A stretch of DNA of 49,432 nt from a bacterium (GTDB taxonomy: Bacteria; Calditrichota; Calditrichia; RBG-13-44-9; J042), in NCBI GenBank assembly GCA_015485355.1, contig WFTQ01000090.1, positions 1 to 49,432 of the forward strand, in the 5' to 3' direction. The position numbers and the translations under genes are program-made. The notes below the pieces were generated by a model. It saw only the letters and a list, made by a program, of their open reading frames with translations, was not told the DNA's origin and searched no databases. Positions 22,986 through 37,644 of this stretch are shown here, in pieces (within the stretch, counting starts at the first letter, position 1; each line of letters opens with the position of its first letter).

Positions 22986-23395
22986 AAATGCCCCCCGGCT
23001 GTGAACGGGAACGGGAGAACAGGATCCGTTTCCAAGCCCTCTCCCGCGCCCGGAGACCGGCGTGTCGGTGCATTCAGGCTGTAAGAACCATCGAATAAAG
23101 CAAGAAGCAGCAGAAGGCTGTATTTTTAAAACGCGGATCCTTTAATCCATAGCCGGCCTTTTGGCGCATCACGCCTGCTTGAAAACTTCCCTTTCCTTTT
23201 GCTGTCGGTTGTTCCGCAACCCTCGGGTTTTGCCTGCGGGTTCCGAAAAGTCCCCCCGAAACGGCTTCCGGCAACCCATCGGTTTTTCCCGGGAAATCGT
23301 TTTGCATTTTTAATCGACCCGGCTTAATTTAGAGGCGTCAGTTGGCACAATTTCTGCATTTATTGCAAGGATATGGAAAAAAGACGAGGGGGATG
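22986..23395. other. Intergenic region before the two-component system
   Basis: About 400 bases with no gene. The first 300 show nothing I can name; the end carries the sigma-54 promoter at 23342-23358. Confidence 0.6.
23342..23358 (+). promoter_or_regulatory. Sigma-54 (RpoN) promoter of the kinase-regulator operon
   Basis: TTGGCACAATTTCTGCA: the invariant GG (23344-23345) and GC (23356-23357) are exactly ten bases apart, and TGGCAC and TGCA match the -24/-12 consensus. The predicted start of transcription is near 23369, leaving a leader of about 27 nt before the kinase start. A TTG codon that opens the reading frame lies inside this promoter, so it cannot be the true start. Confidence 0.8.
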
Positions 23396-24916
23396 ATGCA
23401 TTTTCGCCGATTGGGACTCAAATATCGGTTTATCGGTATTACCATTGCGCTGGTGGTACTGGTCACCTTCACCGGCAGCCTGGTGTTGCACTGGCTGTAC
23501 CGTTCTGCGGGCAATACCTATTATCCGGGTTACCTGGCGGCGGTGGCCGGATTTTATATTTTGATCGGAATTATCGGAGTGTTATTGATCTCCAAATACA
23601 TGATTCAGCCGGTGGTGCATTTGACCCGCAAAGTGTACGAGGTCCGCAGTGGAAATCTGGATATCGAATTTTCTCATCATCAAAATCACGTGTGGATGGA
23701 TGAGATGGATCAGCTATACGAAGGGTTTGCTCATATGGTGCGGCATTTGCGTCAGACCATCGAGGAATTGACCCGGGCCAAAGAGCAGGCCGAAACCGTT
23801 TCCCGGGAGCTTTACAAGAGTAAGAAGCGCCTGGAGGCGGTGTTCAACAGCCTGTCTGATGGGATCATGATCATCGACAGGAATTTCCGTATTGTGACGG
23901 CCAATCCGGTTATATTAAACCTCATGGGGCGTACCGAGGAGGAGATCAAGGGCAAGTACTGTTTTGAGATGTGCAACGGGAGTCTGCGGCGCTGTCAGTT
24001 TTGCCGGGCTTCGGATACTTTTCGGTTCGGAGAGCATCAAATCACCTATTGTACCAAACCGGACCCTTCCGGAAAGGGGGATCGGATTCTGGAAGTGCAT
24101 GATTTTCCCATGTTCGACGAAAACAGAGAGATTGTTCAGATTATTGAATATGTCAAGGATGTCACCGACGCCATGCAGATGCAGGCCAAACTGGAAAGCT
24201 CTCGCCGGTTGGCGGAGATCGGCGAGATGGCCGCCAAGGTGGCCCATGAAGTCCGCAATCCTTTGAATGCCATCAAAGGGGCTACTCATTATCTGCGGGG
24301 CGAAATTCGGGATCGGAACGTGACGATGTACCTGGACTTGATCGAGGAACAGGTGGAGCGGGTCAATCGAGTGGCCACCGATTTATTGGGTCTGGCCCGT
24401 CCGTTGGAGCCCGTCTTTCATCCCGGAAATCTGAAAAAGGTCGTTCATCAGGCGTTGTGGGATACCCAGCAGGCCCTGTCCGATAAACAGATCCGGGTGA
24501 ATCTGAAGCTGCCCTCCGAGGTGCCTGAAATCCCTCTGGACGAAAAACAGGTGGAACAGGCCCTGGTCAACCTTATTTTGAATGCAGTGGATGCGATGGA
24601 GCCGGGAGGAGAGTTGACCCTCGAATTGAAAACCGTTGGTGGTGCCGATGGGCAGCAGGGGCAGTTTGTTCAATTGATTGTCGGCGACAACGGGTGTGGT
24701 ATTCCCGCAAACCTCAAAGAGCAGATTTTTCAACCCTTCTTTACCACCAAGCTCAAGGGAACCGGACTGGGATTGACCATTGTAAAGAAGATTGTAGAAC
24801 ATCATCAAGGAAGGATTGACATCGATAGCCGGGAGAAGCGGGGCACCCGAATCGTTTTACATTTTCCTATAACCATCGGTCGCCATGAAGCCAGGATATA
24901 CAGTTTTAGTAGTTGA
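23396..24916 (+). CDS. Membrane sensor histidine kinase (HAMP-PAS-HisKA-HATPase)
   Basis: About 506 residues. Two membrane helices close together (about 12-33 and 46-67) with only a short loop outside, HAMP-like linker (70-120), coiled coil, PAS (about 145-265), HisKA with phospho-acceptor His284 in 'KVAHEVRNPLNAIKG', HATPase with N box 'NLILNAVDAMEPGG', 'DNGCGIP' and 'GTGLGLTIVKKIVEHH'. The PAS holds four cysteines C-x3-C-x6-C-x2-C (residues 189-203), a pattern seen in other PAS kinases that may bind a metal or sense redox. The tiny periplasmic loop also suggests cytoplasmic or membrane sensing. Start taken at 23396 (or 23393), after GAGGGGG. Overlaps the next gene by 32 nt. Confidence 0.92.
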   Translation: MHFRRLGLKYRFIGITIALVVLVTFTGSLVLHWLYRSAGNTYYPGYLAAVAGFYILIGIIGVLLISKYMIQPVVHLTRKVYEVRSGNLDIEFSHHQNHVWMDEMDQLYEGFAHMVRHLRQTIEELTRAKEQAETVSRELYKSKKRLEAVFNSLSDGIMIIDRNFRIVTANPVILNLMGRTEEEIKGKYCFEMCNGSLRRCQFCRASDTFRFGEHQITYCTKPDPSGKGDRILEVHDFPMFDENREIVQIIEYVKDVTDAMQMQAKLESSRRLAEIGEMAAKVAHEVRNPLNAIKGATHYLRGEIRDRNVTMYLDLIEEQVERVNRVATDLLGLARPLEPVFHPGNLKKVVHQALWDTQQALSDKQIRVNLKLPSEVPEIPLDEKQVEQALVNLILNAVDAMEPGGELTLELKTVGGADGQQGQFVQLIVGDNGCGIPANLKEQIFQPFFTTKLKGTGLGLTIVKKIVEHHQGRIDIDSREKRGTRIVLHFPITIGRHEARIYSFSS

Positions 24917-26285
24917 TGACGAAGAACCCATTTTACGGGTAATGGAGGCCAATCTGGCCCGGGAAGGGTATGAGGTACGAACGGCCAGGGACGCCGCCAC
25001 GGCCTTGCACGTCTTGCAACAGGATCCCATCAGTACCGTCATTGTGGATTACCTCATGCCCGGGATGAATGGTATCCAGATGATTCAACGCTTGAGGGAG
25101 TTGCAACTGGATGTTCCGGTAATTGTTGTTACCGCCTATGGTACCATCGAACAGGCCGTCCAGGCCATGAAACTGGGGGCCTTCAATTACCTGACCAAGC
25201 CCATCAATTATGATGAGTTGATTTCCATCGTTAAGAAGGCCGTGGAACAACATGCCCTGGCCCGGGAAGTGCAACGATTGCGGGAAGAGATTACCTCCCA
25301 GTATGGGTTTCATCAGATAGTGGGGCAGAATCGAAGAATGCAGGAAATCTTTTCCCTGGTACGCGACGTGGCCGAAACCGATGCCACCGTGTTGATCCGG
25401 GGAGAGACCGGCACCGGCAAGGAACTGATTGCCCGGGCATTGCATTTTAATAGTCCCCGTAAAAACCAGCCCTTTGTGCGGGTGAATTGTCCGGCCATTG
25501 CCGAAACACTGCTGGAAAGCGAACTGTTTGGCCACGAAAAAGGCGCCTTTACCGGGGCGATTAAAATGCGGGTGGGACGCTTTGAACAGGCCGATGGTGG
25601 AACAATCTTTCTGGACGAGGTGGGAGACCTTCCCCTGCGGATTCAATCCAAGTTACTCAGGGTGTTGCAGGAAAAGGAGTTCGAACGCGTGGGAGGGAAT
25701 AAAACGATTAAAGTGGATGTGCGCATTGTTTCGGCCACCAACAAAGACCTGGAGGCGGATGTCCAGGCCGGCAATTTCCGCCAGGACCTGTTTTATCGCC
25801 TGAACGTGGTGCCCATCGTGGTGCCGCCGTTGCGGGAACGGCCCGATGATATTCCGCTGTTGGCCATGCATTTCTTAAAAAAATATGCCGAACGGTTTAA
25901 AAAGCCCATCCAGGATATCGTTCCGGAAGGCATGGCTCTGCTGGTCGAGCAAGCCTGGCCCGGAAATGTGCGCCAGTTGGAAAACGTGATCGAACGTGCC
26001 GTCATTCTGGAAAAGAGCGAGCAATTGCAACCCGAAACGCTGGCACGATGCCTGGAGTACAAACCGACCCATTTATACGCGTTTACCATCAATGCGCATA
26101 AACCCCTGAAAGAATTAAAGGAACAGCTGATCGAAAATTTTGAAAAGGAATACATAATTACCCTGTTAAAGGAATACAAAGGGAACATCAGTGCGGCGGC
26201 AAGGGCTTCCGGAATCCACTACAAAAACTTCTACGAAAAAATGCGCAAGTACAACATCAAACGAGCGGATTATCAAAACGAATAA
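24885..26285 (+). CDS. NtrC-family sigma-54-dependent response regulator
   Basis: 466 residues. Receiver domain with phosphorylatable Asp55 in '[12 protein letters not shown]' and the switch Thr/Lys ('VVTAYG', 'YLTKPI'); AAA+ activator domain with Walker A GETGTGKE (about 173-180), the sigma-54-contact loop GAFTGA (220-225), Walker B '[13 protein letters not shown]', and '[11 protein letters not shown]'; C-terminal Fis-type helix-turn-helix ('[20 protein letters not shown]'). Activates transcription at RpoN promoters after phosphorylation by the kinase encoded just upstream, with which it overlaps. Because the pair itself sits behind a sigma-54 promoter, positive autoregulation is likely. Targets outside this operon are unknown. 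Confidence 0.95.
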
Positions 26286-26743
26286 CCTCCGTCCGACGTC
26301 CGCACAGGATTCATCAAATACCCCGAAAAGTGACGCCAAAGCCCAGGAAAAGGGAACCCTCTGCAGAGGAACCTGGATTTCTTCCCCACAATGCAAGGGG
26401 AAATGAACGGTATGCTGACAAAGGGGAGAAAAAAAGGAGATGAGCACCGCTGCAGCCCTCCGGCCGTGTAACTGACCGGGACAATAATCCCGAAAAAGCG
26501 TTGCCAGCCCACCGAAAAAACCATAGCGCAACAACGCAACATTATGGTATTTGGGTTATAACCCCATTGCCATAATTATGGTAATTCCACCATAATTCCG
26601 CTGTGTGGGTCAGACCATGGGGAAGGGTAGGGGCGATCCCCCAGGCCCTTATTCCAATGCCTAATGGTTTCATGGGGGGAAATCGTTCACAAGTGCCAGT
26701 TTCTGGAACAAAGTTTGCAACCCTCTACCCCCTGGAGGCAAGT
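26286..26743. other. Intergenic region upstream of the sHdr cluster
   Basis: About 460 bases without a gene. The first 250 bases show no named structure; the AT-rich part at 26541-26596 is packed with palindromes and a promoter match, annotated separately. Confidence 0.65.
26541..26596 (+). promoter_or_regulatory. Palindromic operator and promoter upstream of the sHdr cluster
   Basis: Within 56 bases: the perfect 12-nt palindromes GGGTTATAACCC (26553-26564) and CCATAATTATGG (26570-26581), plus two more copies of the half site, ATTATGG at 26541-26547 and CCATAAT at 26590-26596. A promoter match TTGCCA (5/6, 26567-26572) - 18 nt - CATAAT (5/6, 26591-26596) is interleaved with them. A dimeric repressor binding here would block both promoter boxes. 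No regulator gene is seen nearby on either strand, so the factor is unknown; ArsR-type regulators control sHdr genes in other bacteria. Confidence 0.55.
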
Positions 26744-26977
26744 ATGGAATGGGTGGTCAGTCGGAGATTGGATTGTCGCTGGATGTACACCCCGCTGGCG
26801 GTGGTGCATTTACACTTTACTCTTCGGGAATTGCATCCGGGCGAAGTTGTTGAGCTATTGATTAATAACGAAGAAAGTTATGCCGACGTGCACAGCTGGA
26901 GCCGGATGACCGGAAATTCTATTCTGCAGGAACGCCGGAAGGAAAGTCACATGTCTATCCTTGTTCAAAAAACCTGA
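26744..26977 (+). CDS. TusA-like protein lacking the active-site cysteine
   Basis: 77 residues with GGAGG at correct spacing before ATG 26744. It aligns end to end, without gaps, with the true TusA encoded 12 nt further on: LDC at the start, 'VV' in helix 1, 'L.PGEVVELL' against 'LEVGQILEMI', 'SWSRMTGNSIL' against 'AWAKQTGHELL', and '..ILVQKT' against 'FLIKKT'. The sulfur-carrying Cys of the CPxP motif is Thr16 here (YTPLA instead of CPMPV), and the second Pro is Ala; only the upstream Cys11 of 'LDCR' remains. So it cannot act as a normal persulfide carrier. It may be a docking or regulatory paralogue, or a decaying copy. It is too diverged to be a recent duplicate. Confidence 0.75.
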   Translation: MEWVVSRRLDCRWMYTPLAVVHLHFTLRELHPGEVVELLINNEESYADVHSWSRMTGNSILQERRKESHMSILVQKT

Positions 26978-26988
26978 TGGAGGAACCC

Positions 26989-27228
26989 ATGGCCGATATT
27001 CCCATTGCCGAAACCCTGGATTGCAGCGGGCTGTTGTGTCCCATGCCCGTGGTTAAAACCAATAAGGCGATCAAGAATTTAGAGGTGGGGCAAATCCTGG
27101 AAATGATTGCCACCGATCCGGGTTCCATTCCCGATATGAAAGCCTGGGCGAAGCAGACGGGGCATGAGTTGCTGGAAGCCAAGGAAGAGGGGGGAAAATA
27201 TCGCTTTTTAATTAAGAAGACCCATTGA
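26989..27228 (+). CDS. tusA: Sulfur carrier protein TusA
   Basis: 79 residues. 'ETLDCSGLLCPMPVVKTNKA' contains the CPxP motif with persulfide-forming Cys17; 'EVGQILEMIATDPGSIPDM' and 'AWAKQTGHELLEAKEE' are the normal TusA strand and helix. In sulfur oxidisers TusA passes sulfane sulfur between rhodanese/DsrE proteins and the sHdr complex in the cytoplasm. The ATG at 26989 follows GGAGG by 5 nt, and the preceding gene stops 12 nt upstream. Directly followed by dsrE3A, the usual partnership. Confidence 0.93.
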   Translation: MADIPIAETLDCSGLLCPMPVVKTNKAIKNLEVGQILEMIATDPGSIPDMKAWAKQTGHELLEAKEEGGKYRFLIKKTH

Positions 27229-27329: not shown

Positions 27330-27842
27330 ATGTCGGATCAAAACGGGCGTCGTCGTTTAGCCATAATTGCCAGCAAAGGGACGCTGGATTGGGCCTATCC
27401 ACCCTTTATACTCGCCACCGCAGCGGGGGCAATGAATTGGGAGGTGGCCATTTTCTTCACCTTTTATGGATTACCGTTGCTGAAGAAGAGGCTGGATGCA
27501 TCGGTTAGCCCTCTGGGCAATCCGGCTATGCCTATGAAGATGCCCTTCGGGCCTCTGGAAAAAATTGAACTGCCCGTTCCCAATCTTATTATGAGCAATG
27601 TCCCGGGTTTTCAGCAAATGGCCACCGCCTTAATGAAAAAGACATTCAAAAAAAAGGGTGTGGCGACCATCGAGGAACTGCGTCATATGGCCGTGGAAAT
27701 GGATGTGCGCCTGATCGGTTGTCAGATGACCATGGATGTGTTTGGGTTTAAGCGCGAGGATTTCATCGATGAGGCCGAAATCGGGGGAGCGGCCACGTTT
27801 CTGGAATTTGCAGCCGATGCCAATGTGAGTTTGTTTATCTGA
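27330..27842 (+). CDS. dsrE3A: DsrE3A-type sulfurtransferase
   Basis: 170 residues. Begins with 'RRLAIIASKGTLDWAYPPFI' and has 'EVAIFFTFYGLPLL', 'SPLGNPAMPMKMPFGP' and 'RLIGCQMTMDVFGFKREDFI', which is the DsrE3A pattern. The only cysteine, Cys131, is at the expected sulfur-binding position at the start of the second half. These proteins bind sulfane sulfur and exchange it with TusA in organisms using Dsr or sHdr sulfur oxidation. The start follows a GAGAGGGGG stretch; about 100 nt separate it from tusA. Confidence 0.92.
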   Translation: MSDQNGRRRLAIIASKGTLDWAYPPFILATAAGAMNWEVAIFFTFYGLPLLKKRLDASVSPLGNPAMPMKMPFGPLEKIELPVPNLIMSNVPGFQQMATALMKKTFKKKGVATIEELRHMAVEMDVRLIGCQMTMDVFGFKREDFIDEAEIGGAATFLEFAADANVSLFI

Positions 27843-28194
27843 CACCGAACCGTTAGGGTGACCAACGAAACAGAAAGGGGAACCATCGGGAAAATCAACC
27901 AGGGACGGCTATGCGGGGGCGGAGGCCTGTTTTTCAATGTCAACCGATTCGCGCCGGTCCGGCGTGGTATCCCGGGTAGGGTGGAATCCCCCGATGGCTC
28001 CAACCGATTACCCCCCGCGGGTGGTTTCGTTCGTGCCCGGAACCAAGGCCGGGTGGGGGTGAGGAGGGAAAGCGCTTCTTTTGAGATCCCGGTTGGTTGC
28101 CGCGTCGGCCATAGGGAGATGCGGGTATCAAAGACCTTCGGGGTCGCCGGGATAACAACGATCGGCCAATAAAAACAAAAGGTTGACCAGAGTC
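27843..28194. other. Gene-free spacer inside the sHdr cluster
   Basis: About 350 GC-rich bases between dsrE3A and the lipoate ligase. A GTG-initiated frame of about 100 codons exists here, but it lacks family features and has the local GC composition of non-coding sequence, so I do not call it. No terminator with a T tract is seen, so read-through remains possible. Confidence 0.5.
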
Positions 28195-29283
28195 ATGAAA
28201 CAGCCCATTCGCTTGATTGATGCCGGCCGGATTCCGTATCTGGAGTCCCAGACAATTTATCATGCCGTGGCCTATGCCATGACACCCGAAACACCGGACA
28301 CCGCCATTCTGGTGCGTCCGGACACACCATACGTGTGTGTAGGGTTCCATCAGGAAACCGAACGAGAAGTGGATCTGGACTACTGTCGGGAGCATCGAAT
28401 TCCGGTTACCCGCCGTGAGGTTGGTGGAGGAGCCGTATTGCTGGACGATCGTCAGATCTTTACCCAGTGGGTGTTTCACCCGGAGCATGTGCCGATGAAG
28501 GTGGTGGATCGCTTTCGTTGGCACGCGGCACCCATAATGGCCACTTATGGGGATTTCGGTGTGGAAGCCAATTTTCGCCCCATAAACGATATTCATGTGA
28601 AGGGTAAAAAAATTGGGGGTATGGGAGCGGCGGCCATTGGAAATGCCGAGGTGGTAGTCAGTTCTCTTATGCTGGATTTCGATACCCGCACCATGGCCCG
28701 GGTACTGAAGGTGCCCAACGAAAAGTTTCGGGACAAGGTGTTCCAGGGGCTGGAAAATTACATGACGACCCTTGCCCGGGAACTGGGACAGGTCCCCGAT
28801 CCTGAGGAAGTCAAGCGTCGCTATATAGCTCATCTGGAGAAACTATTGCAACGTCCCGTGGAGGAAGGGGAGCTCACCGTGGGGGAGAAAGCTATGCTGT
28901 CGGCGTTGAACGAACGATTCTCCACCCGGGAATGGCTTTTCCAGAAAGGGGGGCTGGTGCGGGACGCCGTAAAAATCCACGCTGGGGTGTGGGTTGGCGA
29001 AACAGCCTATAAGGCCCCCGGAGGACTCATTCGCATTACCTTGCGAATCCGGGAAAATACGATCGATGATCTGGCCATTTCCGGTGACTTTACCTTTTAT
29101 CCCCAGCACCAGCTGGCGGCTTTCGAGGCGCATCTAAGAGGAAAGTCGCTGGAGCCGGCGGCACTGCGAAACACGATCGAACAATTTTATACCGCCGCAA
29201 AAGTACAAACGCCCGGTATCGAGGTCGAACACTGGTTAACCGTGTTCGGACAATTGTTGGATGCCGTTGCAAAGCACAGTTGA
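28195..29283 (+). CDS. Lipoate-protein ligase of the sHdr type, sLpl(AB)
   Basis: 362 residues. Lipoate/biotin ligase fold: 'AILVRPDTPYVCVGFHQE', 'VTRREVGGGAVLLDDRQIFT' (substrate loop), 'INDIHVKGKKIGGMGAAAI' with the expected catalytic Lys about 139; then a fused C-terminal accessory domain (about 230-360, 'GWVWVGETAYK-APGGLIRI'-like), which makes it the bipartite LplA-type rather than the small LipB type. In sHdr clusters this enzyme attaches lipoate or octanoate to LbpA, which is encoded 850 nt downstream. No lipoyl synthase is encoded in the window, so lipoate must be made elsewhere or scavenged. The ATG at 28195 was preferred over TTG 28183; ribosome-site evidence is weak for both. Confidence 0.88.
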   Translation: MKQPIRLIDAGRIPYLESQTIYHAVAYAMTPETPDTAILVRPDTPYVCVGFHQETEREVDLDYCREHRIPVTRREVGGGAVLLDDRQIFTQWVFHPEHVPMKVVDRFRWHAAPIMATYGDFGVEANFRPINDIHVKGKKIGGMGAAAIGNAEVVVSSLMLDFDTRTMARVLKVPNEKFRDKVFQGLENYMTTLARELGQVPDPEEVKRRYIAHLEKLLQRPVEEGELTVGEKAMLSALNERFSTREWLFQKGGLVRDAVKIHAGVWVGETAYKAPGGLIRITLRIRENTIDDLAISGDFTFYPQHQLAAFEAHLRGKSLEPAALRNTIEQFYTAAKVQTPGIEVEHWLTVFGQLLDAVAKHS

Positions 29284-29288
29284 GACCG

Positions 29289-29543
29289 GTGAGCCAATGG
29301 AAAAATAAAATACTGGATTTAACAGAGCTGAGCGAAATGTATGTCGAAAAAGCCGGGCAATGGGTGTTGCTGGAAATTGTGGGATACGATCAGCGGGGCC
29401 AGGCCAATCGGGTGCGTGTGGTGGAAATGGCACCCGATAAAGATGAATTATTGGATTACTTGATGGACCGGGAAGACCAATGGGACTGGAACAAACGATT
29501 TGTCATCGTCCGGGCGGACCCCGGTTTATGCACCCTCATCTGA
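29289..29543 (+). CDS. Small conserved-looking protein of unknown function in the sHdr cluster
   Basis: 84 residues from GTG 29289 (or 87 from TTG 29280, which overlaps the ligase stop). Acidic, soluble, no signal or membrane segment. Two tryptophans (AGQWVLLEIVGYD, DQWDWNKRFVIVRAD) and one Cys near the C-terminus. The start 'LSEMYVEKAGQWVLLEIVGYD' is faintly like DUF5678-type small proteins ('Y..Y.GKWVAL..G.'). Tightly packed after the ligase, which supports a real gene, but no clear Shine-Dalgarno. I do not recognise a family and give no function. Confidence 0.55.
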   Translation: MSQWKNKILDLTELSEMYVEKAGQWVLLEIVGYDQRGQANRVRVVEMAPDKDELLDYLMDREDQWDWNKRFVIVRADPGLCTLI

Positions 29544-29636: not shown

Positions 29637-30017
29637 ATGGAGGATCTGGAAGGCAAAAAGATTCTGGTCATTCAAACCCACGGGGTGGATACGCCTACCC
29701 GCACCTATTCCCCGGTGTATTATGCCATTGCTGCAGCGGCCATGGAAATGGAGGTGATGATCTGGTTCACCATGAACGGTACCAATCAGTTGCGGAAGGG
29801 AGAGGCGGAAAAAATTGAATTAAAACCCGGTAGCGGGGTTACCCTGAAAACGCTGCTGGATCAGGCCCTGGATGCAGGGGTGCAATTATCGGTCTGTCAA
29901 CAAAGTATGGACTTATGGGACATGAAACCCGAGGATTTGATCGATGGGGTGAAAATTCTGGGGGCTACCAGCATAATCGACCTGGCCCTGGAGGCGGATC
30001 ATGTCATGTATTTTTAA
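29637..30017 (+). CDS. Second DsrE3-family protein (DsrE3B/C-like)
   Basis: 126 residues. DsrE fold: 'KKILVIQTHGVDTPTRTYSP', 'YYAIAAAAMEMEVMIWFTMNG', 'GVQLSVCQQSMDLWDMKPED' and 'GATSIIDLALEADHVMYF'. One cysteine, Cys87, at the sulfur-binding position, preceded by the normal valine. Shorter than DsrE3A in the same cluster and lacking its central Pro/Met-rich insertion. Having two DsrE3 proteins beside TusA and LbpA is usual in sHdr clusters, where one type works with TusA; the subtype here cannot be fixed without a tree. ATG 29637 follows GAGGAAGG. Confidence 0.88.
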   Translation: MEDLEGKKILVIQTHGVDTPTRTYSPVYYAIAAAAMEMEVMIWFTMNGTNQLRKGEAEKIELKPGSGVTLKTLLDQALDAGVQLSVCQQSMDLWDMKPEDLIDGVKILGATSIIDLALEADHVMYF

Positions 30018-30124
30018 CGACATGACCTTTTCTGCCAGGGGAATTCCCCGGCAAGCGGAGGACAGGAGGATGCCGTAGAGAGCCGCCGGGGGGAAGTGAA
30101 TCCGAAAAGTTAAGGAGTTTAATG

Positions 30125-30583
30125 ATGTCAGACGTTGGGATTGTCCGTGGCTGTAAAATTCCCAGAGATTTGTATTATTCCGTGGAGGATCACACCTGGG
30201 TGCGAACGAACGCTGATGGTACGGTCACCGTCGGGATGACGGATGTGGCCCAAAACCTGGCCGGACCCGTGTTGCATGCCAAAGTGAAAAAGGTTGGGTT
30301 GACTCGCGCGAAAGGTAAACCCATTGGTACGGTCGAAAGTGCCAAATGGGTAGGACCCATCAAGACTCCTGTTTCGGGGGAAATCGTCGCCGTGAATGAA
30401 AAACTGGCCGACGATCCCCAGCTCTTGAATCGCGACCCCTACGGGGATGGATGGGTGGTCAAAATGAAACCGACCGATTGGGATGCAGAAGTGAAGGCCC
30501 TGGTTACGGGCGAGGAAGCGGTGCAAAAGTACAAAGAGAAAGTGGAGCGGGAAGATATCAAGGCCTGCGATCACATCGAGTGA
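30125..30583 (+). CDS. lbpA: Lipoate-binding protein LbpA (GcvH-like)
   Basis: 152-153 residues. Homologous to glycine-cleavage H protein: 'VEDHTWVRTNADGTVTVGMT', 'GKPIGTVESAKWVGPIKTPV' with the lipoylated Lys (residue 74 from this start) in the ESAK motif, and 'DPQLLNRDPYGDGWVVKM'. In sHdr systems LbpA is dedicated to sulfur oxidation rather than to glycine cleavage, and no gcvT or gcvP gene is present. Two ATGs are adjacent; 30125 has the better distance to AAGGAG (7 nt). Acts in the cytoplasm as the swinging arm of the sHdr complex; the ligase at 28195 is its presumed modifying enzyme. Confidence 0.94.
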   Translation: MSDVGIVRGCKIPRDLYYSVEDHTWVRTNADGTVTVGMTDVAQNLAGPVLHAKVKKVGLTRAKGKPIGTVESAKWVGPIKTPVSGEIVAVNEKLADDPQLLNRDPYGDGWVVKMKPTDWDAEVKALVTGEEAVQKYKEKVEREDIKACDHIE

Positions 30584-30705: not shown

Positions 30706-31434
30706 ATGAACGTCGATATTAACTCCATGCCGTTGGATTTGACCGGGGGAAAATACCGCGATATTCCCTACGAAGAGAAGGAGCGATTGTTTAATGAAGT
30801 CAAAGCCGACGTGCGCTTTCACGATGTACTTTATGGTTGTTACGAATGTGGGGTATGTGTGGCGGCTTGTCCCTCGGCACGGTTTTACGATTTCAGTCCC
30901 CGCGTCATCGCCCAGGCCGTGGCGCGCGAAGATGTCGAGCTGGTCTACATCCTGATGAACGATAGCATCTGGGATTGTTCCCAATGTTTTTCCTGCGATC
31001 GCTGTCCCCGGGGCAATTCTCCGGGCGGCCTGATCACCTTGATGCGGGAAGTAGCGGTACGAAACGGACTGGAATCCGCAAAGGAAGCTCTGGAAGGCTA
31101 TGGCCGCATTATTTACAAGATTATGTCCACCGGAACCCAGGTTTCCCCGGACATGCTTCAGCCCAACGCCTTTCCGGACTGGGGGCATCACGTCAACGAG
31201 ATTGCCGATAATCTGGATCTATGGCGGCGGGCCCTTCCACCGGAAACCCTTCACACCGTGGAAACCGGATGGAGCGTAAGCGAAAAAACCATCATCGAAC
31301 TGTACCTGATCTGGCACATGACCGGCGTGATGGACATGATTAAAGAAATAGATGAAGGCCTTTTTATGATTTTGCAGGATGTTATGGAAGAAAGGCTGGA
31401 AGATGCCGGCTACGATGTTACCTTCGATGAATAG
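30706..31434 (+). CDS. hdrC1: sHdrC1, iron-sulfur electron-transfer subunit
   Basis: 242 residues. First cluster motif C-x2-C-x2-C-x3-CP at Cys45, 48, 51, 55 ('CYECGVCVAACP'), second at Cys91, 94, 97, 100 ('CSQCFSCDRCPRG', with two rather than three residues before the last Cys, as in sHdrC1 proteins I know). It is a soluble ferredoxin-like subunit that links HdrB1 and HdrA. AGAAGGAGAGG before the ATG gives a strong start. First gene of the core shdrC1-B1-A-H-B3 set. Confidence 0.92.
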   Translation: MNVDINSMPLDLTGGKYRDIPYEEKERLFNEVKADVRFHDVLYGCYECGVCVAACPSARFYDFSPRVIAQAVAREDVELVYILMNDSIWDCSQCFSCDRCPRGNSPGGLITLMREVAVRNGLESAKEALEGYGRIIYKIMSTGTQVSPDMLQPNAFPDWGHHVNEIADNLDLWRRALPPETLHTVETGWSVSEKTIIELYLIWHMTGVMDMIKEIDEGLFMILQDVMEERLEDAGYDVTFDE

Positions 31435-31475
31435 GGGGGCTTTACCCAGGGGAGCAAATGAAAAGGAGAGCCATT

Positions 31476-32681
31476 ATGGGACAGCAGGTCATCCCGGTCG
31501 AGGAATTGATAAAGTCGCAAAAAAAGCCCGGATTTAAATACACTCCGGAAGAAGCGCCCACCGAAGACTATCGGGACATACTGTTTCAGCTGGAAAAGGA
31601 GGGCGAATTGGAAGTGCTGCGGGTTCCGGAGCCGTATGTTGAGGTGACCACCAAGTATGGTCGCAAAAAGAAAATTCCTCTGGAGCACACCTGGCACCAC
31701 AAAAGCTGTGGTCAGTGTGGCCACATTCCGGGGTATTCGACATCCATTTTCTGGTTAAACCGTCAGTTTGGGTTCGATTATGTGGATCCAAGTGACCAAA
31801 CTTCTTGTACGGCATGGAACTACTATGCCTCGGCCACTTCCAACGCCGAGGCGCAAGCCGCCGTTGCGGTTCGCAACTTTGCCGCAGCCGCGGAAACAGG
31901 GCGTTTTCCCCTCATTCACTGTGGGACCAGTTTTGGGCACTATAAAGAAGTACGCCATGAATTGTTGCATCATCATCAGGTGCGTCGCAAAGTGCGAGAG
32001 ATTATGGAGCGCCTGGGTAAGCGATTGGTCTTTCCTGAAGAGATTGTGCATTATAGCGAATGGGTGTATGCGATTCGCGATCGGATAGCCGAGCGGCAGG
32101 TGATCGATATGAGTGCTATTGTGGCATCGGTGCATCCGGCCTGTCACTATCACAAACTGGTGGAAGAGGACGCCATTTATGATCCCGAAATTTATGGGGC
32201 ACAGCGTACCGCCATTGTTACCGGAACCCTCAAAGCTCTGGGAATTCAGATCGGGGAATATTCCAGCTGGTACGACTGTTGCGGTTTTGGTTTCCGCCAT
32301 ATTCTGGTATCCCGGGATTTTTCCCGCTCCTTTGCGGTGCAGCGCAAGATCGAAGTGATGAAGGAGGAGGCCGATCCAGATATTGTGGTCACCCACGACA
32401 CGGGTTGTGTCACCACCCTGGACCAGAGCCAATTTGCCGGGAAGGCCCATGGCAAGAAGGTGGGGATTCCGGTGATGTCCGATTCCCAGATCGCCGCCCT
32501 GGCCATGGGGGCCCATCCCTATAAAGTATTGCAATTGCATTGGCACAATACGGAAAACCGCCCCTTTCTGGAAAAATTGGGGATCGATCCCGAAGAAAAG
32601 TGGCGCGAGTTTGAGGACGCCCTGGAAAAGTTGAAACGTGGAGAGAAACACTATTTAACCTGGGAGGATGCAGATGCCTAA
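31476..32681 (+). CDS. hdrB1: sHdrB1, CCG-domain subunit
   Basis: 401 residues from ATG 31476 (AAGGAG at 31462). Heterodisulfide-reductase B-type protein with two CCG-like halves. The second is canonical: 'VHPACHYHK', 'WYDCCGFGF' and 'THDTGCVTTLD'. The first is modified: 'KSCGQCGHIPGYS', then 'QTSCTAWNYYAS' in place of CCG, and 'LIHCGTSFGHYK' in place of CxxC. So one full non-cubane cluster site is expected, plus one altered site. sHdrB1 is proposed to carry the catalytic sulfur chemistry of the complex. Overlaps the sHdrA start. Confidence 0.92.
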   Translation: MGQQVIPVEELIKSQKKPGFKYTPEEAPTEDYRDILFQLEKEGELEVLRVPEPYVEVTTKYGRKKKIPLEHTWHHKSCGQCGHIPGYSTSIFWLNRQFGFDYVDPSDQTSCTAWNYYASATSNAEAQAAVAVRNFAAAAETGRFPLIHCGTSFGHYKEVRHELLHHHQVRRKVREIMERLGKRLVFPEEIVHYSEWVYAIRDRIAERQVIDMSAIVASVHPACHYHKLVEEDAIYDPEIYGAQRTAIVTGTLKALGIQIGEYSSWYDCCGFGFRHILVSRDFSRSFAVQRKIEVMKEEADPDIVVTHDTGCVTTLDQSQFAGKAHGKKVGIPVMSDSQIAALAMGAHPYKVLQLHWHNTENRPFLEKLGIDPEEKWREFEDALEKLKRGEKHYLTWEDADA

Positions 32682-33738
32682 TCAAGACATTCTGGTTATC
32701 GGTGGAGGTCCTGCGGGACTGGAGGCCGCCCGCTGCATCGGAGATATAGGCTACAAGGCCATCCTGGTGGAAAAACGCGACCGCCTGGGCGGTACCCCGG
32801 ACGAGGCCGGTTATGCGGCCTTGACCCCTGATCTTCGTAACGCCGAAGAAGCGATGTCCGCCATGGTGCAGGCGGTGGAAAACCATCCCAATGTCGACGT
32901 TCGGTTGGGTACCACCGTGGTGGCCGCCGGCGGCAGCGCAGGAAATTTTACCATTACCTTGAAAAATGGCACACACGAAGAAAACCTCAACGTGGGGGCT
33001 GTCATTATTGCCACCGGTTTTCAGCATTTTGATCCCGGTCGCGAAACCCAAAAATACGGCTATTACGAATATGAAGACGTCATCACCCTGGTGGATTGCG
33101 AGAAGATGCTCCGGGCCCACCGGTTTGTGCGACCCTCCGACGGCAAAAAACCAGAGCGGGTTTGCTTCATTCAATGTGTGGGTTCCCGGGATCGACGCAT
33201 CGGCAACGAATATTGCTCTAAAGTCTGCTGCGGTATCGCTTCGAAAGAGGCCATAGAAATCCGCCAACTGGTGCCCGATTGCAAGGTCTTCATCTTCTAC
33301 ATTGATATGCGCATGTATGCCTATTGGGAACCCGACCTGTACTGGAAGGCCCAGGAGGAACACAAAGTGAATTATGTAAAAGGGATTGCCACGGAAATAG
33401 TTAAAAAAGGCGACCGGTTGCTGGTAAAGGGCGAAGACACCACTTTGCGGCGTCCCTTTGAAATTCCCATGGATATTGTCATTTTGTCTGTGGGCATGGA
33501 ACCCAGTCAGGGGACCCGGGAAATGGCCCGAATCTTTGGCCTGAAACAAAATAAGTATCAGTTTATCGAGGCCGTTGGGGCTCCCATGGATACCGTGACC
33601 ACCTCGGTACCCGGGGTGTTCGCTTGCGGGGCCTGCACCGGACCTGCGGATTTAGAGGACGCCATATCCGCGGCGGGATTGGCGGCTATGCGAGCCATTA
33701 AAACCATTCGGCACCATAGCAACAAAAAGGCCAGTTAA
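32674..33738 (+). CDS. hdrA: sHdrA, FAD subunit of the sHdr complex
   Basis: 354 residues, much shorter than methanogen HdrA because the N-terminal cluster domain and ferredoxin domains are missing, as in all sHdrA. FAD/NAD(P) motif 'ILVIGGGPAGLEAARCIGD', second nucleotide motif 'NVGAVIIATGFQHFD', cluster-ligating cysteines 'CFIQCVGSRDRRIGNEYCSKVCCGI', and the closing 'VFACGACTGPADLEDAISAAG'. It carries FAD and a cluster and is the electron hub. ATG 32674 is chosen over 32668 since GGGAGG sits 6 nt before it; the gene overlaps hdrB1 by 8 nt. Confidence 0.93.
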   Translation: MPNQDILVIGGGPAGLEAARCIGDIGYKAILVEKRDRLGGTPDEAGYAALTPDLRNAEEAMSAMVQAVENHPNVDVRLGTTVVAAGGSAGNFTITLKNGTHEENLNVGAVIIATGFQHFDPGRETQKYGYYEYEDVITLVDCEKMLRAHRFVRPSDGKKPERVCFIQCVGSRDRRIGNEYCSKVCCGIASKEAIEIRQLVPDCKVFIFYIDMRMYAYWEPDLYWKAQEEHKVNYVKGIATEIVKKGDRLLVKGEDTTLRRPFEIPMDIVILSVGMEPSQGTREMARIFGLKQNKYQFIEAVGAPMDTVTTSVPGVFACGACTGPADLEDAISAAGLAAMRAIKTIRHHSNKKAS

Positions 33739-33751
33739 GCAGAGGTTGGTG

Positions 33752-34498
33752 ATGTCTCCGCCTGTTGATAAACAATCGGCCAAAGATTTTATGCTGGAAA
33801 CCCTCTCGCGCATAACGGTAGAGGAACTGGAACAAATTCAGGCCGATCTTGACTCCAAGGTAGAACGCATGCAGGCTCATGTGGAAGAGGCCGTTACCGG
33901 GCGGTTCACCCGGCAGTCCCTACAGGGATTGCTGCGCTGTGTGTTCGCCACGCGGCGAAGAGCCAAACGGATTCAAGCCCACTACTCTGCTGAATATTTT
34001 GCCCAACGGATTGCCCGGTTGTTGGAAGAAGACCCGCCCGTGGAGCAGCGCTTTCAGACATTTTTCAACGCCTTCCCGAAAATAGACCCTTCGTTACGGT
34101 ACGATCTGACCAGTGAGATCTTATTCTTTTCCCGCCCGAAGCATTACTGGCTGTGGACCCGCTGGATATGGGACCCTCGTACCCGTACCGGCTCCCTGCC
34201 GCTGGTGTTGATGGAACCCTTGCACCTGGAAGGCCAAACCGAGGGCGAGATTTACCGGAAAGTCGGCGAGGCCATACAAAGTTTGCAAGAGATCGGGCGT
34301 TCCCGGGAAATTCCCTCGTTTCTGCAATCCCCTTTTGGCGTGTACACGTATCTGGCCTGTGTGTATGTGATCTATACCTATACGGTGTTGCGAATGCGCA
34401 TGACCCAGGAATTCAATAAAGTTATGCCCCAATTACCGGAATTTACCCGAAGACTTCTCGGCATTTATAGTTTGGAGGAACACAAACATGCCAGTTGA
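33752..34498 (+). CDS. sHdrH, hypothetical conserved subunit
   Basis: 248 residues, ATG 33752 after AGAGG. In sHdr clusters a protein of this size and of unknown function sits at this position; it has no cofactor motif, no Cys-rich region and is mostly helical with many Arg/Glu. One hydrophobic stretch 'YLACVYVIYTYTVL' (about 210-224) is possible membrane contact or a buried helix. Overlaps the next gene by 11 nt, so it is translationally coupled and likely part of the complex. Assignment rests on position and general character. Confidence 0.8.
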   Translation: MSPPVDKQSAKDFMLETLSRITVEELEQIQADLDSKVERMQAHVEEAVTGRFTRQSLQGLLRCVFATRRRAKRIQAHYSAEYFAQRIARLLEEDPPVEQRFQTFFNAFPKIDPSLRYDLTSEILFFSRPKHYWLWTRWIWDPRTRTGSLPLVLMEPLHLEGQTEGEIYRKVGEAIQSLQEIGRSREIPSFLQSPFGVYTYLACVYVIYTYTVLRMRMTQEFNKVMPQLPEFTRRLLGIYSLEEHKHAS

Positions 34499-35750
34499 TC
34501 CAAAACAAATCCGCGCCAAGGATAAGGTGGTGGTTGACGGGATAGAGCTAACCAGTGATTGGAACCGTATGTTCGATCAGCGTCCCGTGTTCGACTATGA
34601 TGTGGAAGTGTTGGAAAAAATCGCCGGTATTCCCGGAGCCGAGTCCATGGCCTGGTGTTACCAGTGTGCCCAGTGTGTACCGGTATGCCCGGTCAACGAA
34701 GTGGGCGATTATGGGCCGCGGAAGATCTATCGCCGGCTCCAGTTGGGTATCGATCTGATCCCCGATGAGGAACTGTGGAAATGTACCACCTGTATGCATT
34801 GCTTGCGGGTGTGTCCGAAAGACGTGAACATGATCGATATCATGCCCGCCGTCCGGGAAGAAGCGGTGATGGAGGGCCACGTTCCCCCGGAGCTGCAAGA
34901 GGTATTCGAAAATACGTTTGAATACGGCAATCCCCTAGGAGAATCACCCCGAAAACGAGCCGATTGGGCGAAAGATGCGGGCGTGCCCGTACCCCTGATG
35001 AAGGAGAAAAAGAAAGCCGACATTCTGTGGTTTGTCGAGTGCTATCCTTCCTATCACCCGCGGGGCAAAGAGACCAGTGTGGCCCTGGCCAAAGTATTGC
35101 ATGCCCTGGGAGTGGATTTCGGCATTCTGGGAGTGGAAGAAAAATGTAGCTGCGATTCCCAACGCCTGGCCGGAGAACGGGGTTTATTCGAAGAATTTGC
35201 GGAAGAAAACATCAAAACCTTCAGCAAGTATCAATTCAACACCATTCTGGTCACCGATCCGCATGCCTTAAATGCTTTTAAAAAGGAGTATCCGAAATTG
35301 GGTGGGCGGTACCATGTGGTACACTATACCACTTTTCTGGCTCCGTTAATCGACCGACTGGAGTACCGAAATACCCTGAACTACAGAGTCACCTTTCATG
35401 ACCCCTGTTATCTGGGGCGCCATCACGGGGAGTATGATGCACCGCGGCGGATTCTCAACCGGTTGCCGGGCGTGGAACTGGTGGAAATGTGGCGCTGCCG
35501 GCAGAATAGTTTTTGCTGTGGTGGCGGCGGCGGCGGCATGTGGCTGGACGGCTTCATGGCCGATCATGTCAGGGAACGTCTATCGGAAAATCGGGTGCGA
35601 GAAGCCGTCGAAACCGGTGCCCAGGTGTTGGCCGTATGCTGCCCTTACGAAATATCCCGCTTCGAGGATGCCGTCAAATCCACTGGCAACGAAGGCAAGC
35701 TGATGGTGAAAGATATCATCGAACTGGTGGTGGAGGCCATGGGCGCGTGA
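34488..35750 (+). CDS. hdrB3: sHdrB3, fused sHdrC2-sHdrB2 subunit
   Basis: 420 residues. N-terminal HdrC part: two 4Fe-4S motifs 'CYQCAQCVPVCP' and 'CTTCMHCLRVCP'. C-terminal HdrB part with two CCG halves: the first is degraded ('FVECYPSYHPRG', 'EKCSCDSQRLAG', 'VTDPHALN'), the second is canonical ('HDPCYLGRHHGE', 'NSFCCGGGGGGMW', 'VCCPYEISRF'). A single fused protein in place of separate C2 and B2 subunits is the mark of the type II sHdr layout. It is also clearly homologous, over about 240 residues, to the soluble half of the EMO protein encoded at 37870. Start ATG 34488 after GGAGG. Confidence 0.92.
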   Translation: MPVDPKQIRAKDKVVVDGIELTSDWNRMFDQRPVFDYDVEVLEKIAGIPGAESMAWCYQCAQCVPVCPVNEVGDYGPRKIYRRLQLGIDLIPDEELWKCTTCMHCLRVCPKDVNMIDIMPAVREEAVMEGHVPPELQEVFENTFEYGNPLGESPRKRADWAKDAGVPVPLMKEKKKADILWFVECYPSYHPRGKETSVALAKVLHALGVDFGILGVEEKCSCDSQRLAGERGLFEEFAEENIKTFSKYQFNTILVTDPHALNAFKKEYPKLGGRYHVVHYTTFLAPLIDRLEYRNTLNYRVTFHDPCYLGRHHGEYDAPRRILNRLPGVELVEMWRCRQNSFCCGGGGGGMWLDGFMADHVRERLSENRVREAVETGAQVLAVCCPYEISRFEDAVKSTGNEGKLMVKDIIELVVEAMGA

Positions 35751-35917: not shown

Positions 35918-36682
35918 ATGCATATCATTGTTCCCCTTCGTCAGGTTCCCGACCTGGTGGAAGACCTGGAAATCGATGCCTCGGGAAAAGATCTGGATCG
36001 GGAATGGCTGAAGTACAAAATGAATGAATTTGATGATCATGCTCTGGAAGAAGCGCTGTTATTGAAGGAAGAGGTTGGGGGTGCTGTTACCGCCGTTGCC
36101 CTGGATGGCGGCGAGGTGGATAAGTTGCTTTTTACCGCCGCCGCGAAGGGAGCGGATAGGCTGGTTAAAGTGCGCGGTGATTTTCCCACGCCGTTGAACA
36201 GCCATGCCATGGCCAGGGCCTTGGCCGGTGCAATCCAGGGCCTGGATTATGATTTAATCCTCACCGGCGTCCAGGCGGTGGATGAACTGGATGGCCAGGT
36301 GGGTGTCCTTCTGGCCCACTATCTGGGTATCCCGCACGTATCGGTGGTGACGGATGTGCAGGTTCACGATGGAAAAGCAGTGGTGCACAAGGAATACGCC
36401 GGCGGAGTGATGGGAGAATTTGATGTCATCCTGCCGGCGGTTCTGGGTATCCAGGCGGCGCGACAAACGCCGCGCTACGCTCCGGTCAGCCGGGTGCGAA
36501 TGGCCATGCGCAAATCCACCATCGAGGAGGTCTCCGCCGAGGCCTCCGCCGAGGGCGCCCCGGATATTCGAAAACTGTTTAAACCCGAAAAAGGTGCCGG
36601 AGCACAAATGCTGGAGGGCTCGCCCGAAGCAGTGGCCGAAAAAATTATACACATATTAAAAGAAAAGGGGATTGTGCAATGA
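35918..36682 (+). CDS. etfB: Electron-transfer flavoprotein beta subunit
   Basis: 254 residues. EtfB/AANH-fold: 'MHIIVPLRQVPDLVEDLEID', 'LDREWLKYKMNEFDDHALEEAL', 'DYDLILTGVQAVDELDGQVG' and 'KEYAGGVMGEFDVILPAVLGIQ'. With EtfA it forms a soluble flavoprotein that accepts electrons from the sHdr complex and gives them to EMO. GAGGAGG before ATG 35918. A 167-nt gap without clear structure separates it from hdrB3; its stop overlaps etfA by ATGA. Confidence 0.95.
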   Translation: MHIIVPLRQVPDLVEDLEIDASGKDLDREWLKYKMNEFDDHALEEALLLKEEVGGAVTAVALDGGEVDKLLFTAAAKGADRLVKVRGDFPTPLNSHAMARALAGAIQGLDYDLILTGVQAVDELDGQVGVLLAHYLGIPHVSVVTDVQVHDGKAVVHKEYAGGVMGEFDVILPAVLGIQAARQTPRYAPVSRVRMAMRKSTIEEVSAEASAEGAPDIRKLFKPEKGAGAQMLEGSPEAVAEKIIHILKEKGIVQ

Positions 36683-37644
36683 GCGATGTATTGGTATTTG
36701 CCGAACATCTCCAGGGCAATTTAACCGATTCCACCTTTGAATTGCTGGGCAAAGGCCGGGAGCTGGCCCAGACCACGGGAGGGCATCTCATCGCCGCCCT
36801 GTTGGGAAAGGGAGTGGAGCCACTGACCGAACAAATGGGTGTGGCCCATAAGGTGGTGATGGTAGAACATCAACAGTTGGCAGCGTTTAATCCGGAGGCC
36901 TACGCAATCGCCCTGAAGGCTGTGGTGCAATCGTTGAATCCCTCCATCATCCTGATCCCTTATACTTCCATGGGCATGGATCTGGCCTCCGCCCTTTCGG
37001 CGGACTTGGGCATTCCTCTGGCCGCCTACGTGTCCGAGGTAAAGATCGAGGATGGAACATTGATGACCGTCAGTCAGATGTACGGCGGAAAGGTAAATGT
37101 AGAGTCTGAATTTTCCGGAAACCCAAAAATCGTCTCCGTGTTGGCGGGGGCCTTTCCGGCCGAGGCCGGGAAAGTAGAGGGAACTCCCGTCATCGAAACG
37201 ATGGAGGCCCCCAACGCATTGGCCAACCTGCGGGTAACTTTTAAACAATGGATTGAACCCGAAGGGGGTGATGTGGACATTACCCAGCAGGATGTATTGG
37301 TCAGCATCGGTCGAGGCATTCAGAGCCAGGAAAACATTCCCATGGTTGAAGAATTGGCCCGGAAATTGGGCGGTGCACTGTCGGCTTCGCGACCCATTAT
37401 TGACAATAAATGGTTGCCCAAAAGTCGTCAGGTGGGGAAATCCGGATTAAAAGTAAAACCCCGATTGTACCTGGCCCTGGGGATTTCGGGGGCCCCGGAG
37501 CACATCGAGGGTATGAAAGACGCTGAGCTCATCATCGCCGTCAATTCGGATCCCAACGCCCCCATTTTTGAATATGCCCATTATGGGGTCGTGGGGGATT
37601 TGTTCGACCTGCTCCCGATCCTCAAAGAAAAATTGGGAGGTTAG
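36679..37644 (+). CDS. etfA: Electron-transfer flavoprotein alpha subunit
   Basis: 321 residues. N-terminal AANH-like domain, C-terminal FAD domain with 'PRLYLALGISGAPEHIEGMK' and 'IIAVNSDPNAPIFEYAHYGV' and 'VGDLFDLLPIL'. The usual GISGAxQH reads GISGAPEH here, a small change near the flavin. Coupled to etfB by a 4-nt overlap. Part of the same transcription unit as EMO, 225 nt downstream, which makes a dedicated Etf for this pathway likely rather than a fatty-acid oxidation Etf. Confidence 0.95.
   Translation: MSDVLVFAEHLQGNLTDSTFELLGKGRELAQTTGGHLIAALLGKGVEPLTEQMGVAHKVVMVEHQQLAAFNPEAYAIALKAVVQSLNPSIILIPYTSMGMDLASALSADLGIPLAAYVSEVKIEDGTLMTVSQMYGGKVNVESEFSGNPKIVSVLAGAFPAEAGKVEGTPVIETMEAPNALANLRVTFKQWIEPEGGDVDITQQDVLVSIGRGIQSQENIPMVEELARKLGGALSASRPIIDNKWLPKSRQVGKSGLKVKPRLYLALGISGAPEHIEGMKDAELIIAVNSDPNAPIFEYAHYGVVGDLFDLLPILKEKLGG

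Follow-up and report, generated by a model that had tools for sequence, protein, structure and literature searches.

A Cys-less TusA paralogue encoded directly before tusA and dsrE2 in Calditrichota, a candidate non-catalytic partner in sulfur transfer

In many bacteria, sulfur traffic centres on TusA, whose single cysteine is regarded as the very reason the protein exists. The stretch of DNA analysed here (the window; 49,432 nt of a Calditrichota genome, contig WFTQ01000090.1) raises the question of what a TusA might do without it. At positions 26744 to 26977 on the forward strand lies a gene for a 77-residue TusA paralogue in which LDCRWMYTPLAVV replaces LDCxGLxCPMPVV, directly followed by a normal tusA. 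The gene could be a dying copy or could encode a working, non-catalytic partner; judging from the comparisons below, it is probably the latter.

The Cys-less protein and its neighbour

The Cys-less protein aligns with the neighbouring TusA over 73 residues, 18 of them identical (25%) and 42 similar (58%; BLASTP, E=2e-15), and the alignment is ungapped, as the initial annotation had described. TPLA stands where TusA has CPMP, so that the persulfide-carrying cysteine of the CPxP motif, the mark of a functional TusA sulfur carrier, is absent, while the cysteine of the upstream LDC (Cys11) is retained. The Pfam TusA domain (PF01206) is recognised across residues 8 to 76 with 41.4 bits (curated cut-off, 28.6), and the other three Cys-less members of the same Calditrichota family score 42, 40 and 38 bits. 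An AlphaFold model built on the protein's own small alignment (pLDDT 95.7) shows the strand and helix order of TusA, and its best match among solved structures is E. coli TusA bound to IscS (3lvj_C; TM 0.89, 1.4 A), placing the model in the TusA fold. Together, the Pfam score, the BLASTP alignment and the structural match rule out a chance likeness. Against the NCBIfam equivalogs TusA, YedF and YeeD, the four Cys-less proteins of the family reach at best 24.5 bits (YedF), far from the cut-offs of 78-79, a failure that is not decisive alone since the normal TusA next door, at 61 bits, likewise scores too low. We conclude from sequence and predicted fold that this is a true TusA paralogue without the sulfur-carrying cysteine, in which the Thr-Pro pair would keep the start of the helix chemically reasonable without a thiol.

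The gene boundaries given in the initial annotation are right, with an ATG start at 26744 behind a GGAGG ribosome site (CTGGAGGCAAGT-ATG). An alternative GTG start at 26603 was rejected, as the gene would then run through the conserved sigma-54 site described below. The neighbouring TusA (26989 to 27228, forward strand; LDCSGLLCPMP; PF01206, 97 bits) is the only other TusA-family protein passing the search in this genome. Its conserved ATG at 26989 begins 11 nt past the Cys-less stop at 26977, confirming the close packing noted earlier, and its Shine-Dalgarno sequence GGAGG sits directly behind that stop. A further in-frame ATG at 26977, overlapping the stop, is not conserved in one of the relatives (G003).

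The third gene of the module (27330 to 27842, forward strand) had been taken for a DsrE3. It encodes instead a DsrE2-type sulfur carrier, with 215.6 bits against NCBIfam NF047629 (SulfCarrDsrE2; cut-off 210), and it is a constant member, dsrE2 being conserved in 5/5 loci that have the Cys-less tusA.

Constraint and distribution of the Cys-less lineage

All four sampled members of the window's Calditrichota family have the Cys-less gene immediately ahead of tusA and dsrE2, and each genome encodes exactly one Cys-less and one normal TusA. Identity to the window protein is 71% in G001, 69% in G003 and 31% in G002. Among the 40 genomes of the class that were searched, these four are the only carriers. 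Searching 385 genomes with a profile brought up a single strong outlier, a genome of 4.6 Mb from outside the class (G229; E=5e-30), whose Cys-less copy reads LDCRWLYDPLP, with Asp replacing Cys; it reaches 34.5 bits against the NCBIfam TusA equivalog, again below the cut-offs of 78-79. Here, too, tusA comes next after the Cys-less gene (68% to that of the window) and then dsrE2 (78%), the product of the latter scoring 205.8 against NF047629, just under the cut-off of 210.

At the position of the sulfur cysteine, the five orthologues thus have Thr in three (TPLA), Asp in G229 (DPLP) and, in G002, a residue other than Cys without a recognisable motif. The LDC cysteine, which the initial annotation reported as kept, is present in the window protein and in 4/5 orthologues overall, and is replaced by Tyr in G002. 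Invariant in all five are, among others, V4, S6, D10, R12, L23, G33-E34, E37, W52-S53, T56-G57 and Q75-K76; the partner TusAs differ from the Cys-less proteins at S6, R12, L23, S53 and Q75. A tree of 49 TusA-type proteins, to be read with caution because the alignment is short and some branches are long, unites the five Cys-less proteins in one clade (98/96) and their partner TusAs, also five, in a second (97/92). Across the deep branches, the Cys-less proteins share 27-46% identity, compared with 63-84% for the partner TusAs. The Cys-less proteins therefore resemble the TusA/SirA-like family (PF01206) in their whole-length domain match above cut-off and predicted fold, and differ from it in the missing CPxP cysteine, in a clade and an S6/R12/QK signature of their own, and in sitting beside a normal TusA.

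Is the lineage nevertheless decaying? In favour of a decaying duplicate of tusA, the sulfur-carrying cysteine is missing and dN/dS is several times that of tusA. Among the three close orthologues, however, dN/dS is 0.21, 0.16 and 0.07, with bootstrap upper limits of 0.43, 0.31 and 0.19 (tusA, 0.01-0.03); these values are approximate, synonymous distances being near saturation, and lie far below 1. The reading frame is open, without frameshift, in 5/5 genomes. Neutral drift simulated over the same distances led to a mean identity of 11-31% and to a stop in more than 93% of 3000 runs, none of which (0/3000) reached the observed 69-70% identity. The low omega and the simulation together indicate a gene that is constrained, though less so than tusA, and these comparisons lead us to conclude that it is maintained by purifying selection. 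With an old split and co-inheritance as additional counterarguments, decay is highly improbable. The initial annotation had named a lack of homologues, relaxed selection or frameshifts in relatives as signs of decay and had proposed dN/dS as a check; five orthologues, an omega of 0.07-0.21 (upper bounds <=0.43) and five intact frames speak for maintenance.

The search for homologues beside other sHdr clusters, also proposed there, succeeded in the four family genomes and gave CPxP-type TusAs elsewhere. In the other sHdr-bearing Calditrichota family (f6), the same operon is headed by a normal TusA (LDCRGLNCPLP), which alone passes the cut-off, and no Cys-less TusA was found; in one f6 genome, an additional TusA match below the threshold lies outside this count. 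The TusAs beside about 15 gammaproteobacterial sHdr clusters all retain the cysteine, and the f17 group is uninformative, no tusA having been found near its sHdr clusters. Candidates in Binataceae (L053), a gammaproteobacterium (L054) and G018 were dismissed because all keep the cysteine, as do the next 20 best profile matches in other genomes. A scan of IMG/VR gave no match, and plasmid matches stayed below 60% identity, the listed ones being annotated as TusA-family, as CstA or not at all (judged by annotation alone). We also noticed TusA-like proteins with a CPMH motif, cysteine included, and a DIVYLM stretch in two f118 genomes (L209, L211).

The G229 locus is informative about the unit to which the gene belongs. 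Downstream of its dsrE2 follow a fusion of rhodanese with metallo-beta-lactamase and a fused Fe-S/membrane subunit similar to proteins of the TtrB/NrfC type. No sHdr genes were found within the 30 kb read, nor did this genome turn up in an HdrB1 search that covered an equal number of relatives. Since this fifth copy adjoins tusA and dsrE2 without detectable sHdr, the unit appears to be [Cys-less TusA]-TusA-DsrE2 rather than a component of sHdr; being the first gene of an sHdr cluster, as initially annotated, is not an essential link. TusA and DsrE2 accompany the Cys-less TusA throughout, which sHdr, LbpA and the second DsrE do not. In partner TusA and DsrE2, the window family shares more identity with G229 (68%/78%) than with the sister Calditrichota family (52-55%/63-67%), suggesting that the three-gene unit was transferred horizontally. 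The Cys-less tusA, tusA, dsrE2, rhodanese fusion and fused Fe-S/NrfD-like subunit of G229 (L228, 9356-14218) form a sulfur-oxidation-like cluster without sHdr, in whose TusA CSEP replaces CPxP.

The operon and its putative sigma-54 control

In the window, the three-gene module opens a long forward-strand operon. It continues with a lipoate-protein ligase-like gene (sLplA, 28183 to 29283), a small protein gene (29319 to 29543), a second DsrE-family gene (29637 to 30017; DsrE3B-like by position) that adjoins lbpA, and lbpA itself (30122 to 30583), encoding a GcvH-like lipoate-binding protein. The shdrC1-B1-A-H-B3 core (30706 to 35750) and etfB and etfA (35918 to 37644; assigned by position and conservation across Calditrichota) come next. 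A type II sHdr cluster is defined as shdrC1B1AHB3 plus etfAB (PMC11582611), and the window operon has this gene content, the genes lying together between 30706 and 37644; C1, B1, A and B3 resemble Hdr families with scores below the methanogen cut-offs, and H, without a family hit, was placed by synteny. The described type II set differs in lacking the Cys-less TusA, as does the sister Calditrichota family. The small protein (about 74 aa, ending in ADPxLCTL) yielded no Pfam family and has one weak relative in G040; it is confined to the Calditrichota family of the Cys-less TusA. Considered as a partner because it co-occurs within that family, it was demoted as it is absent near the G229 module.

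Upstream of the Cys-less gene, at 26704 to 26719 on the forward strand, is a -24/-12 element, TGGAACAAAGTTTGCA, the sole perfect match to the sigma-54 pattern in the window and the inferred operon promoter. The Cys-less gene is preceded, at a distance of a few tens of nt, by TGGAACN4TTTGCA in 4/4 family genomes. About 110 bp above it, a perfect-match palindrome, TATGGTAATTCCACCATA (26577 to 26594), unique in the window, is a probable enhancer (UAS) for an NtrC-type regulator, and the form TRTGGYN6RCCATA was present upstream of the operon in all eight Calditrichota loci examined, sister family included. A sensor histidine kinase (23342 to 24916, forward strand) and its paired NtrC/AtoC-type sigma-54-dependent response regulator (24885 to 26285, forward strand) precede the operon. 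The regulator's orthologue adjoins the operon in G001 and in f6 and lies elsewhere in G002 (65%); next to the module of G002, G003 and G229, the two-component genes are missing. The rpoN gene is present in the window genome (G000), G001 and G003, and was not found in G002, a genome 89% complete. A GG-N10-GC element, an NtrC-type activator and rpoN in the genome thus come together, and a sigma-54 control unit for the type II sHdr operon is plausible on these sequence features. The same scan found neither the sigma-54 element nor the palindrome near the G229 module. Such control would be unlike the ArsR-type repressors sHdrR/SoxR described for Hyphomicrobium (PMC12423496).

Two further observations concern this region. 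Where the histidine kinase ORF starts (23343-23358), TGGCACAATTTCTGCA is one mismatch away from the sigma-54 pattern, which might reflect autoregulation or chance. In G003 (L034, C566), where the kinase/regulator pair is not next to the operon, the operon and its promoter elements lie beside an unrelated gene that, judged by eye, resembles one for a hydroxyacyl-CoA dehydrogenase.

What the Cys-less protein might do

Our leading reading, to which we give a probability of roughly 45%, is that the protein has been kept as a TusA-fold subunit, itself non-catalytic, of a unit in which TusA and DsrE2 transfer sulfur. Such a protein would retain the fold, be unable to hold sulfur at the CPxP site and most likely work through binding, pairing with TusA and/or the DsrE2 oligomer in a structural or gating role that positions or shields the real carrier. 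Its gene would come first among the cistrons of a sulfur-oxidation operon driven by sigma-54, translated just before tusA and perhaps coupled to it; that it is expressed, what it binds and how it affects sulfur flow are all inferred. The intact domain and predicted fold (41 bits, pLDDT 95.7, TM 0.89), the purifying selection, the loss of the cysteine in all five orthologues and the one-to-one pairing with a normal TusA in the family genomes are consistent with it. So are the two clades (98/96; 97/92), the conserved sigma-54 site and the fifth copy, again before tusA and dsrE2 outside the class. On the other side, the fast evolution fits either a loose binding role or weak constraint, and the known orthologues number five, from a thin sampling of phyla outside Calditrichota. 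In Metallosphaera cuprina, moreover, TusA requires its cysteine both to contact DsrE3A and to form dimers (PMC4175335), so that a Cys-less form might not bind canonically.

That dependence also weakens the proposal of the initial annotation, docking or competing on DsrE3A as TusA does; together with the constant neighbourhood of TusA and DsrE2, it leads us to favour a structural or gating partner of these two over a decoy on DsrE3. A broader version of the competitor, an antagonist or flow regulator that occupies the site of TusA on an acceptor (DsrE2, the Hdr complex) or a donor and so limits sulfur delivery, would profit from the shared fold and core residues. As first cistron with its own Shine-Dalgarno sequence and a conserved promoter, it would be the earliest product to appear once the operon is turned on. 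It would, however, need the contact surface of TusA, and the active-site loop and helix 1 are strongly unlike between the paralogues (LDCRWMYTPLAVVHL vs LDCSGLLCPMPVVKT); with the Cys-dependent TusA-DsrE3A contact (PMC4175335) also against it, we regard this as unlikely. Somewhat less likely still is a carrier in which Cys11, where strand 1 ends, stands in for the CPxP cysteine. Three orthologues have no cysteine other than Cys11, and 4/5 retain it, but G002 has Tyr, many ordinary TusAs have the same residue, making its retention nothing special, and the cysteine required in a studied TusA is the CPxP one (M. cuprina Cys18; PMC4175335). There is little to recommend a sensor adaptor reporting the state of the relay to the neighbouring kinase and NtrC-type regulator: the two-component system and sigma-54 promoter are adjacent in the window and G001, yet the sister sHdr family has the same pair and palindrome without a Cys-less TusA, and the pair is not beside the module in G002, G003 or G229.

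Cys-free subunits beside Cys-bearing ones are familiar from other sulfur relays, namely SoxZ in SoxYZ and DsrF/TusC in DsrEFH/TusBCD. The analogy is one of working principle; those subunits have other folds and are demonstrated parts of complexes, whereas the Cys-less TusA is known from sequence and predicted fold. In gene order, the module resembles the rhd-tusA-dsrE2 and tusA-dsrE2 clusters of sulfur oxidisers (PMC4175335, PMC6335251), differing in the extra Cys-less gene before tusA and in having no rhd in front; the link to sHdr is shared by 4/5 Cys-less genomes, one being without detectable sHdr. We found no description of a Cys-less TusA beside tusA in the open literature searched, nor a precedent in that on sulfur oxidation in Calditrichota.

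In sulfur oxidisers, the gene for DsrE2 frequently occurs linked to tusA, and M. cuprina DsrE2B accepted no sulfur in vitro (PMC4175335). Tentatively, and with slightly less assurance than for the subunit reading itself, we propose that the Cys-less TusAs are a separate lineage, mobile by horizontal transfer, that serves the TusA-DsrE2 relay as a dedicated non-catalytic subunit in bacteria with and without sHdr and could show the role of DsrE2. A lineage selected without the cysteine and adjoining a normal carrier and DsrE2 in two distant groups would mean that a binding role of the TusA fold is separable from sulfur carriage, and the Cys-less TusA may serve as a natural separation-of-function tool for DsrE2.
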